A stretch of 64,000 bases of DNA from Oscillospiraceae bacterium. Its GTDB lineage: Bacteria; Bacillota; Clostridia; Oscillospirales; Acutalibacteraceae. The notes beneath the pieces were generated by a model. It ran no database searches and was not told where the DNA came from. It saw only the letters and a list, made by a program, of their open reading frames with translations. The stretch lies in NCBI GenBank assembly GCA_015066245.1, contig SVOS01000001.1, positions 214,433 to 278,432 of the forward strand. The letters are read 5' to 3'. Made by a program: the position numbers and the translations under genes. Below are positions 2,909 to 35,948 of this stretch, piece after piece (the stretch's first letter is position 1; the number at the start of each line of letters is the position of its first letter).

Positions 2909-5473
2909 ATGAGCGACTCCGTCAAGGATATGCAGAATAAAGACAATATGATTGACTCCATTATCGAAGAAACCAGATATCTGTCTGAGAAAGAAAAAAT
3001 GGAGCTGGAAGCCAGAAAATTCAACAAAGTAAAACGCAACCGTGCTACTGCATCGGCTGACGAAATTTACTCCAATAAAAGCAAAGAAGTCAGATTCACA
3101 AATCAGAATCCTCTTGATATAGCAGACGATGACGAGGAAGAAGAGATAAACCCACAGCCTCAGGAGCAGATTGAGGAAAGTGTGGAGCCTCAGCAGGTTG
3201 TTACGCTTACTCCCGAATACGAAGAAGGCACCAAAATATCTGACGACATTGTAGAAAATGTTGATAACTTCAATGTAAAGCCTGTACAGATTCAGGACAT
3301 AGATACTATTGATATAGATATTGACAGCGCTGAAAATAATGAGGAAAATCCCTCTGAAAAACCTTCTGATGCTAAAATTCCTGAAAAAGCTGCAGAAGAA
3401 GAAAAGGCAGAAACCCAGAGCGAGTTTGAAAAGCTCTTTGGCAAGGCAAAGCCTGTTTCATCTGCTCAGGCCATTGTGTCAAGGGTGCCTGTTTATCAGC
3501 ACGAAAGCAAGGTCGAGAAGGTCCACGTAAGAGCAGGCAAGTTTTCGGCTGTGGTTGAAAATGAGTATAAAAAATACATAGCATCTCCAAATCCCGTTAT
3601 TTCTCAGATGGTTACCCCTGAGGAAGTAGAGCCTAAAGAAGAGGAAGAAAAAACTCCCAAAAAGGTTGCCACCAATTTTATGGGCAAGGTTACGGGATTC
3701 TTCAGCTCAGGCGAGGACGAAAACGATGATTTCCGCGAAAAGACTGTGCAGATTGAGGACTACAAAAGCCGTCAGGACACTGGCTCTATTATGCAGGAGA
3801 TTAACCGCAACATCCGCAAGATGTTTATCAACAGCGTCTTCACAGGAGTTATTACTGCCATACTTTTTGTACTCAGTATTGTAATCTCCGTAAACGGTAT
3901 TTTGCTTGGTGACACAGGCTCCATCGTTATGTGCCTTATAAACACACTGCTGCTTCTGATGAGCTGCTGGATTTGCAGAGTTACCATCATAAACGGTCTG
4001 ACTCCCCTTAAGAAATTCCGCGGTAATTCTGACACAGGTGTGTCTATAGCCGCTATTTCAGGCATTATTCAGGGTGGTATTTCTATTTTTACCTCCACCA
4101 GATTTACCGGCGGATTTATGCATCACTACGCAGTGATTGTTGCACTTATCCTGCTGCTTAACAATCTTGGCAAGTTGTTTATGGTGCTGAGAGTCAAGGA
4201 TAACTTCAAATTTGTTACCCAAAAAGCCCCCACATACTCGGGCAAGATATATGTAAACGAGGATATCGCCAAAAAGCTTATGAGCGGCACCATCGGCAAG
4301 CCCATTGTTGCCTATCAGGTAGAAAGCGACTTCCTCTCAGATTACCTTAAGATTTCTTATTCACCCGACCCCTCTGAGGACATGTCAGGCAAGATTGCTC
4401 CTGTTTCCATTTTGTGCTGCGTATTTGTCGCAGTACTTTATGCAATTCTCTCGGGCGGTGACATTATCGGTGCTTTTTCTGCCCTTGCAGTTATGGCGGC
4501 AGTAAGCACACCTGTGGCAAATCTGCTGGCGGTAAACCTGCCCATGAGACGCCTCTGCAAGGATACTTTGCAGAAAAACGCGATGATTGCAGGCTACCCC
4601 TCTGTAAGACAGTTCTGCGACACAAAAGCAGTTATTGCTGATGCAAGAGACCTTTATCCTGCAGGCAGCATTACATTAAACGGTGTAAAAGCTTTTGATA
4701 ACTACAAAATCGAAGACAGCTTTCTTTCTGCGGCAGCAGTGCTGAGAGAAGCAGGCTCCCCCTTAGCTTCTGTTTTTGACAATGTGGTGGACAACCACGG
4801 CGGAAAACTCCCCAAGGTAGAAAGTGTTATGTACGAGGACAAGCTTGGCCTTGTTGGCTGGGTAAACGGCGAGAGGCTTCTTATCGGTTCTGCTGAGCTT
4901 CTTGAAAAATTCGGTGTTGTTGCTCCTCCTTTAAGCGGCGAGGAACAGTACATGAAAGAAGGCAGAAAAAAGACCTATTACGCAAAAGGCTCAAAGGCGA
5001 TAGCTATGTTTGTCACAACATATAACGCTACTTTGAGAATTGCCGAGGAGCTTCAGCGTGCTGAGGCAAACGGAATCAACCTCCTCGTGCGTACTGCTGA
5101 CCCCAACATCACATCCGAGAAAATCTCCGAGGATTTCGGCATTTTCTTCAGAAGTGTCAAGGTACTTTCCACGGGGCTCGGCAACGTATGTCAGGAAATT
5201 TCTTCTCAGAAAGAGGACTCGTCCCGTGCATATCTTGCCACAAGAGGCAGCTTCCTGCCTTTCCTCAGAGCTGTATCAGGTTGTGTAAGAATGAAAGCCA
5301 ACATCTCTCTGACTGTTGTGATTCAGCTTATCGGTCTGATTTTAGGCATACTTATCACTGCTACAATCACCCTTTGCTCGGGTGTTCATTCTCTTGATTC
5401 AATCAAAATTCTCTTGTATCTTATGTTCTGGGGTATTGCGGCGGTTGTTGCTCCCCTTATTCAAAAACCATAA
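2909..5473 (+). CDS. Degenerate P-type ATPase-like membrane protein with long acidic N-terminal region
   Basis: 854 aa; acidic low-complexity N-terminus, then TM helices, then segments resembling the P/N domains (VIADARDLYPAGSITL in place of the DKTGT motif; GLVGWVNGERLLIGSAELLEKFGV). Confidence 0.6.
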   Translation: MSDSVKDMQNKDNMIDSIIEETRYLSEKEKMELEARKFNKVKRNRATASADEIYSNKSKEVRFTNQNPLDIADDDEEEEINPQPQEQIEESVEPQQVVTLTPEYEEGTKISDDIVENVDNFNVKPVQIQDIDTIDIDIDSAENNEENPSEKPSDAKIPEKAAEEEKAETQSEFEKLFGKAKPVSSAQAIVSRVPVYQHESKVEKVHVRAGKFSAVVENEYKKYIASPNPVISQMVTPEEVEPKEEEEKTPKKVATNFMGKVTGFFSSGEDENDDFREKTVQIEDYKSRQDTGSIMQEINRNIRKMFINSVFTGVITAILFVLSIVISVNGILLGDTGSIVMCLINTLLLLMSCWICRVTIINGLTPLKKFRGNSDTGVSIAAISGIIQGGISIFTSTRFTGGFMHHYAVIVALILLLNNLGKLFMVLRVKDNFKFVTQKAPTYSGKIYVNEDIAKKLMSGTIGKPIVAYQVESDFLSDYLKISYSPDPSEDMSGKIAPVSILCCVFVAVLYAILSGGDIIGAFSALAVMAAVSTPVANLLAVNLPMRRLCKDTLQKNAMIAGYPSVRQFCDTKAVIADARDLYPAGSITLNGVKAFDNYKIEDSFLSAAAVLREAGSPLASVFDNVVDNHGGKLPKVESVMYEDKLGLVGWVNGERLLIGSAELLEKFGVVAPPLSGEEQYMKEGRKKTYYAKGSKAIAMFVTTYNATLRIAEELQRAEANGINLLVRTADPNITSEKISEDFGIFFRSVKVLSTGLGNVCQEISSQKEDSSRAYLATRGSFLPFLRAVSGCVRMKANISLTVVIQLIGLILGILITATITLCSGVHSLDSIKILLYLMFWGIAAVVAPLIQKP

Positions 5474-33938: not shown

Positions 33939-34529
33939 ATGACTGAAAAAGAAAAAATGCTGAATACTCTCCCCTATGTGGGATGGGACCCGGAGCTTGA
34001 AGAAGAAAAAGCAAGAGTCCGTGAGCTGGTGTATGAGTATAATAACTCAAGACCCGCTGAGCGTGAAAAGCGAAATGAGCTAATCACCAAAATTTTAGGC
34101 TCTCGCAAGAATAATGCCTTTATGGAGCCGCCTTTTCATTGCGACTACGGATACAATATTCATGTTGGTGAGAATTTTTATGCAAATTTCAATCTGACAA
34201 TTCTCGATTGCAGCAAAGTTACAATTGGCGACAATGTGCTTATTGCACCTAATGTTACAATTACTGCTGCAGGTCATCCAATACATCCCGAAATGCGAAA
34301 GGTTGCAGAGTATGCCGCACCGGTAAAAATCGGCGATGATGTGTGGATTGGTGCAGGAGTTATCGTAAACCCCGGTGTTACCATCGGCTCGGGCTCGGTA
34401 ATCGGCTCAGGCTCAGTGGTTACAAAGGATATTCCGCCTATGGTGGTGGCTGTGGGCAACCCCTGCAGAGTCCTCAGAGAAATCACCGAAGAAGACAAAC
34501 AGTATTATTTTAAGAAAATGAAATTTTAG
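33939..34529 (+). CDS. Sugar O-acetyltransferase (maltose/galactoside acetyltransferase type)
   Basis: MTEKEKMLNTLPYVGWDPELEEEKARVRELVYEYN...hexapeptide repeats IGDDVWIGAGVIVNPGVTIGSGSVIGSGSVVTKDIPPMVVAVGNPCRVL. Confidence 0.92.
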   Translation: MTEKEKMLNTLPYVGWDPELEEEKARVRELVYEYNNSRPAEREKRNELITKILGSRKNNAFMEPPFHCDYGYNIHVGENFYANFNLTILDCSKVTIGDNVLIAPNVTITAAGHPIHPEMRKVAEYAAPVKIGDDVWIGAGVIVNPGVTIGSGSVIGSGSVVTKDIPPMVVAVGNPCRVLREITEEDKQYYFKKMKF

Positions 34530-34599
34530 CAAAAAGTAAGTAATGCTGATTTTAAATTGATATACTTAATGGGTGTTGATAAAATAAAATAAGAAAAAA

Positions 34600-34650
34600 G
34601 AGAGAACAAAGCGCATATTGATATCTGCAATGTTCTCTCTTTTATTTTAG
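34600..34650 (+). terminator. Long-stem terminator-like hairpin
   Basis: AGAGAGAACA...TGTTCTCTCTTTTATTTT. Confidence 0.65.
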
Positions 34651-34852
34651 GTTTAGCGATATATTCGTAAGCGAATGCGATATAATCTCATTTCAGTCGA
34701 TTGCGATATACTGAGCAATAACTCAGTGCGATATGATATAAATCCTCATTTGCGTAGCAAATATATCGCACGCAAAGCGTATATCGTATTGAGCATCAAT
34801 ATATCGCAAATCCCTTAAGGATTTATATCGCTTGCGTGATTTTATCACGCAA
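34651..34852. repeat. Array of GCGATATA/TATATCGC motifs interleaved with short hairpins
   Basis: GCGATAT(A) at 34656, 34677, 34703, 34728 then TATATCGC at 34762, 34800, 34824, plus a degenerate TATATCGT at 34780; intervening hairpins ATTCG-taag-CGAAT, CTGAG-caataa-CTCAG, ATTTGC-gta-GCAAAT, ACGC-aaa-GCGT, ATTGA-gca-TCAAT, AAATCC-cttaa-GGATTT, TTGCGTGAT-ttt-ATCACGCAA. Confidence 0.88.
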
Positions 34853-34853
34853 C

Positions 34854-35723
34854 TTATTCCTCAGTATTATGTTTTTCGATAGTAACGGAAAGAATACGTC
34901 TTTCCTCGATTTTGTTGATTTTGAATGTGGCATTGTTGATAGTAACTTCAGGGGTTTCGGAGTCTTCGGGGATTCTGCCCAGATTCTCAAGAATAAAGCC
35001 TGCAACAGTATCGCAGTCGGTTTCGGGAATATCAAGCTCAAGCTCTTTTGAAATATCCTCGATTGATGCACTGCCTTCAACGGTGAAACGATTGTCAGAA
35101 AGCTTCTTTACTTCGTCTTCTTCGTTGTCATATTCGTCGCGGATGTTGCCTAAAATATCCTCAATCAGATCCTCAAGAGTAATAAGTCCCTCGGTGCCGC
35201 CGTATTCGTCCACAACAATTGCCATCTGAACTCTTTTCTTGGTCATTTCTGTAAAAAGCTCGGAGCAGTTCTTGGTTTTGGGAACAAACAGAACATCGCG
35301 GACAACTTTGGAGAGATCAAAGCCCTCAACCTTTGCGCCTACAAAGGGAAGCAAATCCTTTACATACAAAACACCTACGATGGTGTCGATATCGCCTTTG
35401 AAAACAGGGATTCTGGAGTAGCCGCTTTCGATGGCTGCGTCCACCACCTGAGAAAGCTCTGATGTATCTTCAATGGCAGTCATTTCGGTGCGGTGGGTCA
35501 TAATTTCAGAAGCAACCGTATCGTCAAAATCAAAAACATTTTCTATGATGTTTTTTGTAGAATCACCGATAACGCCTTTTTCTTGTCCTTCTTCAACCAG
35601 CGAGAGGATTTCTTCCTCTGCTTCCTGCTGGATTTCTTCGCGGCTTTTGCTGCCGAAAAGTCTTGAAAAAAGCGAGTCTCGTTTTTTGGCTTCTTTAAGC
35701 TTATTACCTGAATCGTCAGGCAT
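34854..35723 (-). CDS. CBS-domain hemolysin/CorC (CNNM-associated) family protein lacking an N-terminal membrane domain
   Basis: DFDDTVASEIMTHRTEMTAIEDTSEL...GYSRIPVFKGDIDTIVGVLYVKDLLPF...VDEYGGTEGLITLEDLIEDILGNI...; likely start ATG 35723. Confidence 0.88.
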   Translation of the reverse strand: MPDDSGNKLKEAKKRDSLFSRLFGSKSREEIQQEAEEEILSLVEEGQEKGVIGDSTKNIIENVFDFDDTVASEIMTHRTEMTAIEDTSELSQVVDAAIESGYSRIPVFKGDIDTIVGVLYVKDLLPFVGAKVEGFDLSKVVRDVLFVPKTKNCSELFTEMTKKRVQMAIVVDEYGGTEGLITLEDLIEDILGNIRDEYDNEEDEVKKLSDNRFTVEGSASIEDISKELELDIPETDCDTVAGFILENLGRIPEDSETPEVTINNATFKINKIEERRILSVTIEKHNTEE

Positions 35724-35948
35724 TTTGGTCAACCCTTTCGGTTTAAAATTGTGAGTCAGTAACATAAAAGTTTCCTCACCTCCATAAGTTTACATAAAAT
35801 CCAATAAAAAGTCAATGGTAAAGGCTTTTTGCACTTTACAAATCACGAATAAAGTGTTATTATGTTAGATGGTACAAAAGACGTGCCATCTATATTTTTT
35901 AAAGTATGTGAATTTTTTCACATTTATCTAAAAAGGAGGACGATTCCA

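Follow-up and report, generated by a model that had tools for sequence, protein, structure and literature searches.

A hairpin array at a gene 3' end in an Oscillospiraceae genome, probably a gene-less copy from a mobile-element family linked to 23S rRNA intervening-sequence proteins

We propose, with a probability of about 0.7, that the 200-bp hairpin array at positions 34651-34852 of the window (the whole 64,000-nucleotide stretch analyzed here) is a non-autonomous, gene-less copy from a family of mobile elements that encode a 23S rRNA intervening-sequence protein (IVP, PF05635) and are related to the 23S intervening sequences. In the complete elements, the array is directly followed by the gene for this four-helix-bundle protein of ~113 aa; the window contains no IVP gene, and no IVP remnant was found at its array, which is a gene-less relative of the complete elements only. 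There is good support for regarding the arrays and IVP as a single genetic unit. From the observations given below we infer the mobility of these elements (also in trans), the binding of the linkers by IVP, which would drive the spread, and a fold-back step at insertion.

On the forward strand, four GCGATAT(A) motifs (34656-34734; GCGATATA at 34656, 34677 and 34703, GCGATAT at 34728) are followed by four inverted ones (34762-34831; TATATCGC at 34762, 34800 and 34824, TATATCGT at 34780), with palindromes between them, as described in the initial annotation, all of whose named hairpins were found; the spacer 34685-34702 (ATCTCATTTCAGTCGATT) shows imperfect pairing only. The array is intergenic and lies between convergent protein genes. 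Its orientation is that of the minus strand: it begins behind the CorC/HlyC-type stop codon (gene end 34854) and runs to 34656 (Table 1). The interval annotated initially did include the terminal hairpin (34832-34852) but omitted the terminator-like hairpin abutting the other end (34594-34644). The whole window contains eight GCGATATA sites, six of them inside the array, and eight or more were obtained in none of 100 dinucleotide shuffles; the array also folds far better than its shuffled versions, both as RNA (z -5.95) and as DNA (z -7.4). No second array of such kind was found elsewhere in the window.

Table 1. Features of the array and of its neighborhood (window coordinates; numbering of linkers and hairpins follows the orientation of the array)
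Feature	Position	Strand	Remark
Terminal hairpin TTGCGTGAT-AAA-ATCACGCAA	34832..34852	-	starts 1 nt past the CorC/HlyC-type stop codon
Linker 1, GCGATATA	34824..34831	-	
Hairpin 1, AAATCC/GGATTT	34808..34823	-	conserved in the family; also matched by Gut-1
Linker 2, GCGATATA	34800..34807	-	
Hairpin 2, TTGA/TCAA	34788..34799	-	
Linker 3, variant ACGATATA	34780..34787	-	
Hairpin 3, CGC/GCG	34770..34779	-	
Linker 4, GCGATATA	34762..34769	-	
Hairpin 4, TTTGC/GCAAA	34747..34761	-	
Centre, GAGGATTTATATC-ATATCGC	34728..34746	-	GGATTTATATC able to pair with the array start; ATATCGC is the first inverted linker
Hairpin CTGAG/CTCAG	34711..34727	-	
Inverted linker	34703..34710	+	
Spacer, imperfect hairpin	34685..34702		
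Inverted linker	34677..34684	+	
Hairpin ATTCG/CGAAT	34664..34676		
Last inverted linker	34656..34663	+	right end of the array
Terminator-like hairpin AAAAGAGAGAACA..TGTTCTCTCTTTT	34594..34644		abuts the right end of the array
Gut-1 (RF01706) match, sub-threshold	34758..34833	-	full model length, 31.5 bits
Upstream (target) gene, CBS + CorC_HlyC domains	34854..35765	-	
Convergent neighbor, hexapeptide acetyltransferase (Mac)	33939..34529	+	

Pattern and Rfam searches, the only ones used for the source genome (1.80 Mb, 35 contigs), revealed a close homologue at C8:216005-216133, in which most hairpins of the window copy recur in unchanged order; the two also share the centre and, at the right end, the GAGAGAACA terminator-like hairpin. 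Of the three occurrences of this terminator-like hairpin in the genome, two are at these arrays. Shorter copies are located at C8:16653 and C8:170193; near the former, other dispersed-looking inverted repeats, GGGGCGATTCACGAATCGCCC and GGGGAGGGTCCATCCCCTCCC, are present (L011, 2250-2500). Among 59 relatives the hairpin-spaced pattern occurs in several families of the order, with a reversed control pattern nearly absent, and a scan of one genome per species gave at least 116 matches; those listed belong, by name, nearly all to Clostridia, Clostridiales or Oscillospiraceae, mostly from ruminant gut. In Clostridia the family numbers at least 126 distinct GCGATATA-type copies, which bears out the initial proposal of a modular palindromic element; it is dispersed, and its pairing is under constraint.

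The layout of the family is largely fixed: a terminal hairpin, four GCGATAT units beginning, from the AATCC end, with GCGATATAAATCC..GGATTT, the GGATTTATATC-ATATCGC centre and three inverted units, i.e., hairpins each closed by ATATCGC. The linker is constant, and the arms drift with their pairing kept, as was noticed initially from the window copy alone: of 368 different spacers, 73% can form self-paired arms of 4 bp or more, as against 8% when halves are swapped between spacers. Since direct and inverted linkers can pair in a nested manner, the strand could, judging by its sequence, alternatively form stacked four-way junctions. The terminal hairpin, with an arm of ~10-11 bp, occupies the same place in 104 of 118 relatives. 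Also 104 of 118 testable copies of the GCGATATA type lie behind the end of a same-strand open reading frame (40 of 118 for opposite-strand frames within the same span), the median distance from the stop codon to the first linker being 27.5 nt; a tRNA is located upstream in only three of 118. The window copy has all the traits of this family, i.e., the position at a gene 3' end, the terminal hairpin, four direct and four inverted GCGATAT motifs and the centre. Carriage by phages was considered as the main route of spread and rejected: the strict TGAAAT-type pattern gave no matches in a viral contig collection, a phage collection gave one 28-nt match, and the GCGATATA type was present on only one prophage-like viral contig (L120, IMG/VR). 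The latter carries three near-identical left halves (at 5010, 7059 and 10043) among terminase, portal and capsid genes, and their terminal hairpins, located at or over the stop codons of upstream genes, differ by paired changes.

The association with IVP was seen at several levels. In the first set of genomes, PF05635 was present in all 18 array-rich and in two of 12 array-free genomes. Among 199 genomes of the order, matches to Gut-1 (RF01706), the Rfam model related to these arrays, and IVP occurred together in 71, whereas 10 had only Gut-1, 24 had only IVP and 94 had neither (odds ratio 27.8, p ~4e-22); the family-stratified odds ratio was 30.9, and the observed overlap was reached in none of 10000 within-family permutations. 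Thus 10 of 81 Gut-1 genomes, some of whose assemblies may be incomplete, have no IVP match, and 24 of 95 IVP genomes have no Gut-1 match. When 50 IVP genes were fetched by family search alone, with arrays disregarded, and labeled by counting and by eye, a hairpin array was found to end just upstream of the start codon in 34, and tandem short repeats in 15, with one case unclear. A linker-agnostic detector recognized arrays at 24 of the 50, as compared with 0 of 21 and 4 of 193 control reading frames (p=1.7e-15 for the latter); detection with a fixed linker misses the majority of IVP-linked arrays, whose linkers vary from clade to clade. The tandem-repeat group of PF05635 genes (L237-L240, L253, L259, L268-L271, L273, L275, L277, L281, L285, L317, L326-L329) has repeats of 7-9 nt (AATGCAG.., GTGGACAGT..) at its flanks and not hairpin arrays; an inverted form is often present on the other side, and base pairing of the two could enclose the gene in a single long stem like that of classical intervening sequences.

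The linkers of IVP-linked arrays include GCGATAT, TGATATT, TGATAT, TGAAAT, TGATGT, TGAAG, GCTAAAT, TTATGA and GAATTG. When 78 IVPs were placed on a maximum-likelihood tree (76 labeled rows), the linker type changed 12 times, as compared with 49.6 times for shuffled labels (minimum 45), some of the labels having been given during inspection of the loci, prior to tree construction. Several genomes (G038, G051, G214, G205, G101) contain more than one linker type, and every type there is accompanied by an IVP of the corresponding clade, which indicates that the correspondence is not simply a consequence of host ancestry. Eleven IVP genes directly behind GCGATAT arrays group together with modest support (83), and a representative of the window's genus, G079, has an array with a GCGATAT-clade IVP 80% identical to another one, P0001 (from L048). 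Two IVPs with GATGATAT-like and ATGTAATC-like linkers (G000:C8:182577-182879, i.e., L318, and L332) form long branches beside the GCGATAT clade, and further linker classes probably exist. In the source genome itself, three intact-looking IVP genes are present, none of the GCGATATA clade, and on contig C24 the remains of an IVP gene, with no frame left intact, lie immediately behind a Gut-1-type array, which indicates that gene-less arrays can arise through loss of IVP. Two loci of the window's genus (L335, L336) are array-IVP-array tandems, in which the first terminal hairpin recurs at the start of the second array, as a single arm in L335 and in full in L336; they may be the result of tandem duplication or of target duplication.

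The novelty claimed initially holds in part. Half of the architecture is already represented in Rfam by Gut-1, listed as a probable ncRNA found in human gut only, with no function given (Weinberg et al., 2010, PMC2864571), while for the link between IVP and the arrays we found no description in the open-access literature, although subscription papers may hold one; IVP has been mentioned among CRISPR-adaptation associations (PMC10910872). The Gut-1 consensus has the identical layout with TGAAAT as the linker, and the model matches the AATCC half of most elements examined, with scores up to 91 bits. Copies of the TGAAAT type in the source genome score 66-75 bits, whereas the window element (E=7.6e-4, model positions 1-77) and other elements of the GCGATATA/GTGATAT type (26-48 bits) are below the Rfam gathering cut-off of 50 bits. 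Three consecutive hairpins with a constant ~7-nt linker are present, as seen in the alignment of L057 and in the full-model match in the window. The window element has the Gut-1 architecture and belongs to a different linker subfamily; by the curated rule it is not a Gut-1 member, and Gut-1, judged by its architecture, is the sister family of the GCGATATA family. Gut-1 matches at E 0.001 were found in 81 of the 199 genomes (in 68 above the cut-off; up to 22 matches scored per genome). Among the best 30 copies, 17 are directly at the 3' end of a tRNA and two at that of tmRNA (19 of 30 together), behind a terminator-like hairpin.

Sites of the array occupied in some species and empty in others are among the grounds for the mobile reading. 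In the sister species G026, the orthologous site has no element, only a terminator between the two genes. A hot spot is the rlmD-type methyltransferase gene, whose 3' ends were seen both with and without an element. Element-free rlmD genes end with the usual HVExVV tail and have no 3'-end hairpin over ~6 bp; at six element-bearing loci, by contrast, a perfect palindrome of 12-14 bp precedes the first linker, one of its arms lying in the conserved HVExxV codons, and the inverted copy encodes the new C-terminus. The same arrangement, with mismatches, was observed at L185 and L314; at L165 and L301 the rlmD frame enters the element and stops there, in L301 without a long palindrome. In G079, the terminal hairpin of the GCGATAT units holds the stop codon of the upstream gene in its loop. 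These rlmD palindromes and the G079 hairpin favor fold-back copying of target sequence at insertion. However, the hairpins may have been present before insertion, or the second arm may have evolved later: a single event is common to related species of the SLVCL group, and in L185 the two arms carry changes that compensate each other. No clean target-site duplication was seen by eye at rlmD or in L335, nor a near-identical empty site with one. Against mobility stands the fact that no transposition was observed, presence and absence of arrays being seen only between species (G026, rlmD loci), with the sister species only 86% identical to ours in the neighboring protein. Also at odds with the proposed explanation are the Gut-1 genomes lacking IVP and the IVP genomes lacking Gut-1, the tandem repeats that replace arrays at about a third of IVP genes, the lack of a GCGATATA-clade IVP in the source genome, and the L301 element with no long palindrome.

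A complete member of the family comprises a terminal hairpin, four direct and four inverted linkers with their hairpins, and a PF05635/TIGR02436 gene for ~113 aa, each protein clade being paired with its own linker of 5-8 nt (GCGATATA for the clade concerned here). The clade-specific linkers suggest that IVP probably recognizes its own linker in a folded strand, and the protein-binding platform proposed initially is plausible; if the arms serve as geometry and not as sequence, this would explain why they drift and yet stay paired, although replication-linked correction of imperfect palindromes could keep the pairing instead. The copies lie in the sense orientation at gene 3' ends, namely at stop codons (GCGATATA type) or at tRNA and tmRNA 3' ends (TGAAAT, or Gut-1, type), and a fold-back step at insertion is suggested by the rlmD terminal hairpin, which is usually the last codons of the target plus their inverted copy. 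Gene-less copies can come from decay of the IVP gene. P0001 scores 82 bits with PF05635 and 93 bits with TIGR02436 and matches PDB 2rld (BT_0352) by sequence; its predicted four-helix model (pLDDT 87) resembles 2rld and 2gsc (TM 0.83-0.88) and, more weakly, Avd of diversity-generating retroelements (TM 0.69-0.80, E 0.05 and worse). Comparison of its domains and structure revealed no catalytic domain; as none is known for IVP, the strand-transfer enzyme is the missing part of the mobile reading.

Several other explanations have to be considered. The array could be transcribed together with the upstream gene, as a structured RNA or 3'-UTR element (Gut-1 being listed in Rfam as an RNA) that acts on mRNA ending, stability or decay, with IVP as its RNA-binding regulator. 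The covarying arms, the strong RNA folding, the Rfam match and the sense orientation directly behind genes, tRNAs and tmRNA are in its favor; however, a terminator-like hairpin precedes the array at tRNAs and some genes, so that much of it may stay untranscribed, the occupation of orthologous sites is patchy, many copies per genome stand behind unrelated genes, and the IVP gene belongs to the complete elements. We therefore consider this explanation unlikely, though it is not exclusive, as a mobile element may act as RNA too. Quite improbable, in our opinion, is the mobilization of REP-like repeats in trans by an unrelated enzyme (a Y1/RAYT transposase, a reverse transcriptase or another one), with IVP as a hitchhiker. 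REP elements are the most familiar hairpin repeats of bacteria, and Y1 is weakly associated with the arrays (odds ratio 2.0, p=0.018). But the Y1 transposase (PF01797), of which the source genome has one gene, is absent from 14 of 24 array-heavy genomes, and the reverse transcriptase (PF00078) from 18 of the 24 and from the source genome, so neither is a general partner; the linker tracks IVP clades, although an enzyme other than those searched for may be responsible. In place of the REP-type transposase, suggested initially as something to look for, the linked protein is PF05635.

Binding sites for chromosomal housekeeping (gyrase, a nucleoid or a cruciform-binding protein), spread by recombination and palindrome correction and having no mobility of their own, would agree with the intergenic place between convergent genes, and replication slippage in palindromes could keep the pairing. 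Such sites leave unexplained the adjoining IVP gene, the clade-specific linkers, several linker types per genome and the rlmD insertions, and we regard this explanation as very improbable. A CRISPR array, with repeats of ~23-50 bp and unique non-palindromic spacers, is excluded by the repeats of 7-8 bp and the self-complementary spacers, in agreement with the initial annotation. The probability of chance low-complexity sequence is practically nil: A+T richness and nothing more speaks for it, and the shuffles, the pairing within each copy and the copies in the own and many other genomes refute it, the absence of other copies and of conserved self-complementarity having been named in advance as the sign of a chance region.

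In gut Clostridia, the array-IVP family, including Gut-1, is widespread and seems to represent a class of mobile DNA that has gone largely undescribed. It provides a genomic context for the nature of the Gut-1 RNA, for the spread of intervening sequences and for the abundant genes of gut bacteria annotated as "four helix bundle protein" or "23S rRNA-intervening sequence protein", and the match between protein clades and linkers offers directly testable protein-nucleic acid pairs. The insertions alter host proteins, as palindrome-encoded tails replace the C-termini of RlmD. If mobility is true, the element is very small, less than ~1 kb with the gene and 0.2 kb without it. More tentatively, and with somewhat less than even confidence, we suggest a separate class of mobile elements that encode no transposase, recombinase or reverse transcriptase and spread by means of only one protein, a four-helix bundle of ~110 aa; they would recognize a clade-specific linker between hairpins, insert at RNA or gene 3' ends and turn the last codons of the target into an inverted copy, the 23S intervening sequences being their rRNA-dwelling branch.

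Among the known systems, diversity-generating retroelements share with the family the four-helix-bundle likeness of Avd, in fold only; unlike them, our elements have no consistent reverse transcriptase, and no pair of template and variable repeats was seen. REP/BIME sequences with RAYT (an IS200-like Y1 transposase) are multi-copy non-autonomous hairpin repeats with a small protein that has a matching recognition motif. The arrays are similar to them as multi-copy gene-less hairpin repeats tied to a small protein; unlike REP/BIME, their distribution requires no Y1 transposase, which most array-heavy genomes lack, and they consist of a constant linker and variable hairpins rather than of constant hairpins. 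Gut-1 has the same left half, with hairpins separated by a constant linker; catalogued as a stand-alone ncRNA of 77 nt with TGAAAT, it is here one half of an element of ~200 bp, and, unlike the catalogued family, the elements also use further linkers, are associated with an IVP gene and are widely distributed among Clostridia. The closest known relatives are the 23S rRNA intervening sequences, which have a protein of the same family. Known ones, such as that of Coxiella burnetii with its S23p/IVP gene (PMC4990558), lie inside 23S rRNA and are excised by RNase III; no linker-hairpin arrays were noticed in the description of the Coxiella sequence. The window copy lies between two protein genes and not inside 23S rRNA, and the elements in general differ from intervening sequences by their location at the 3' ends of tRNA, tmRNA and protein genes, their modular linker-hairpin arrays and their many gene-less copies; in common with them they have the PF05635 protein, the selfish character and the complementary arms.
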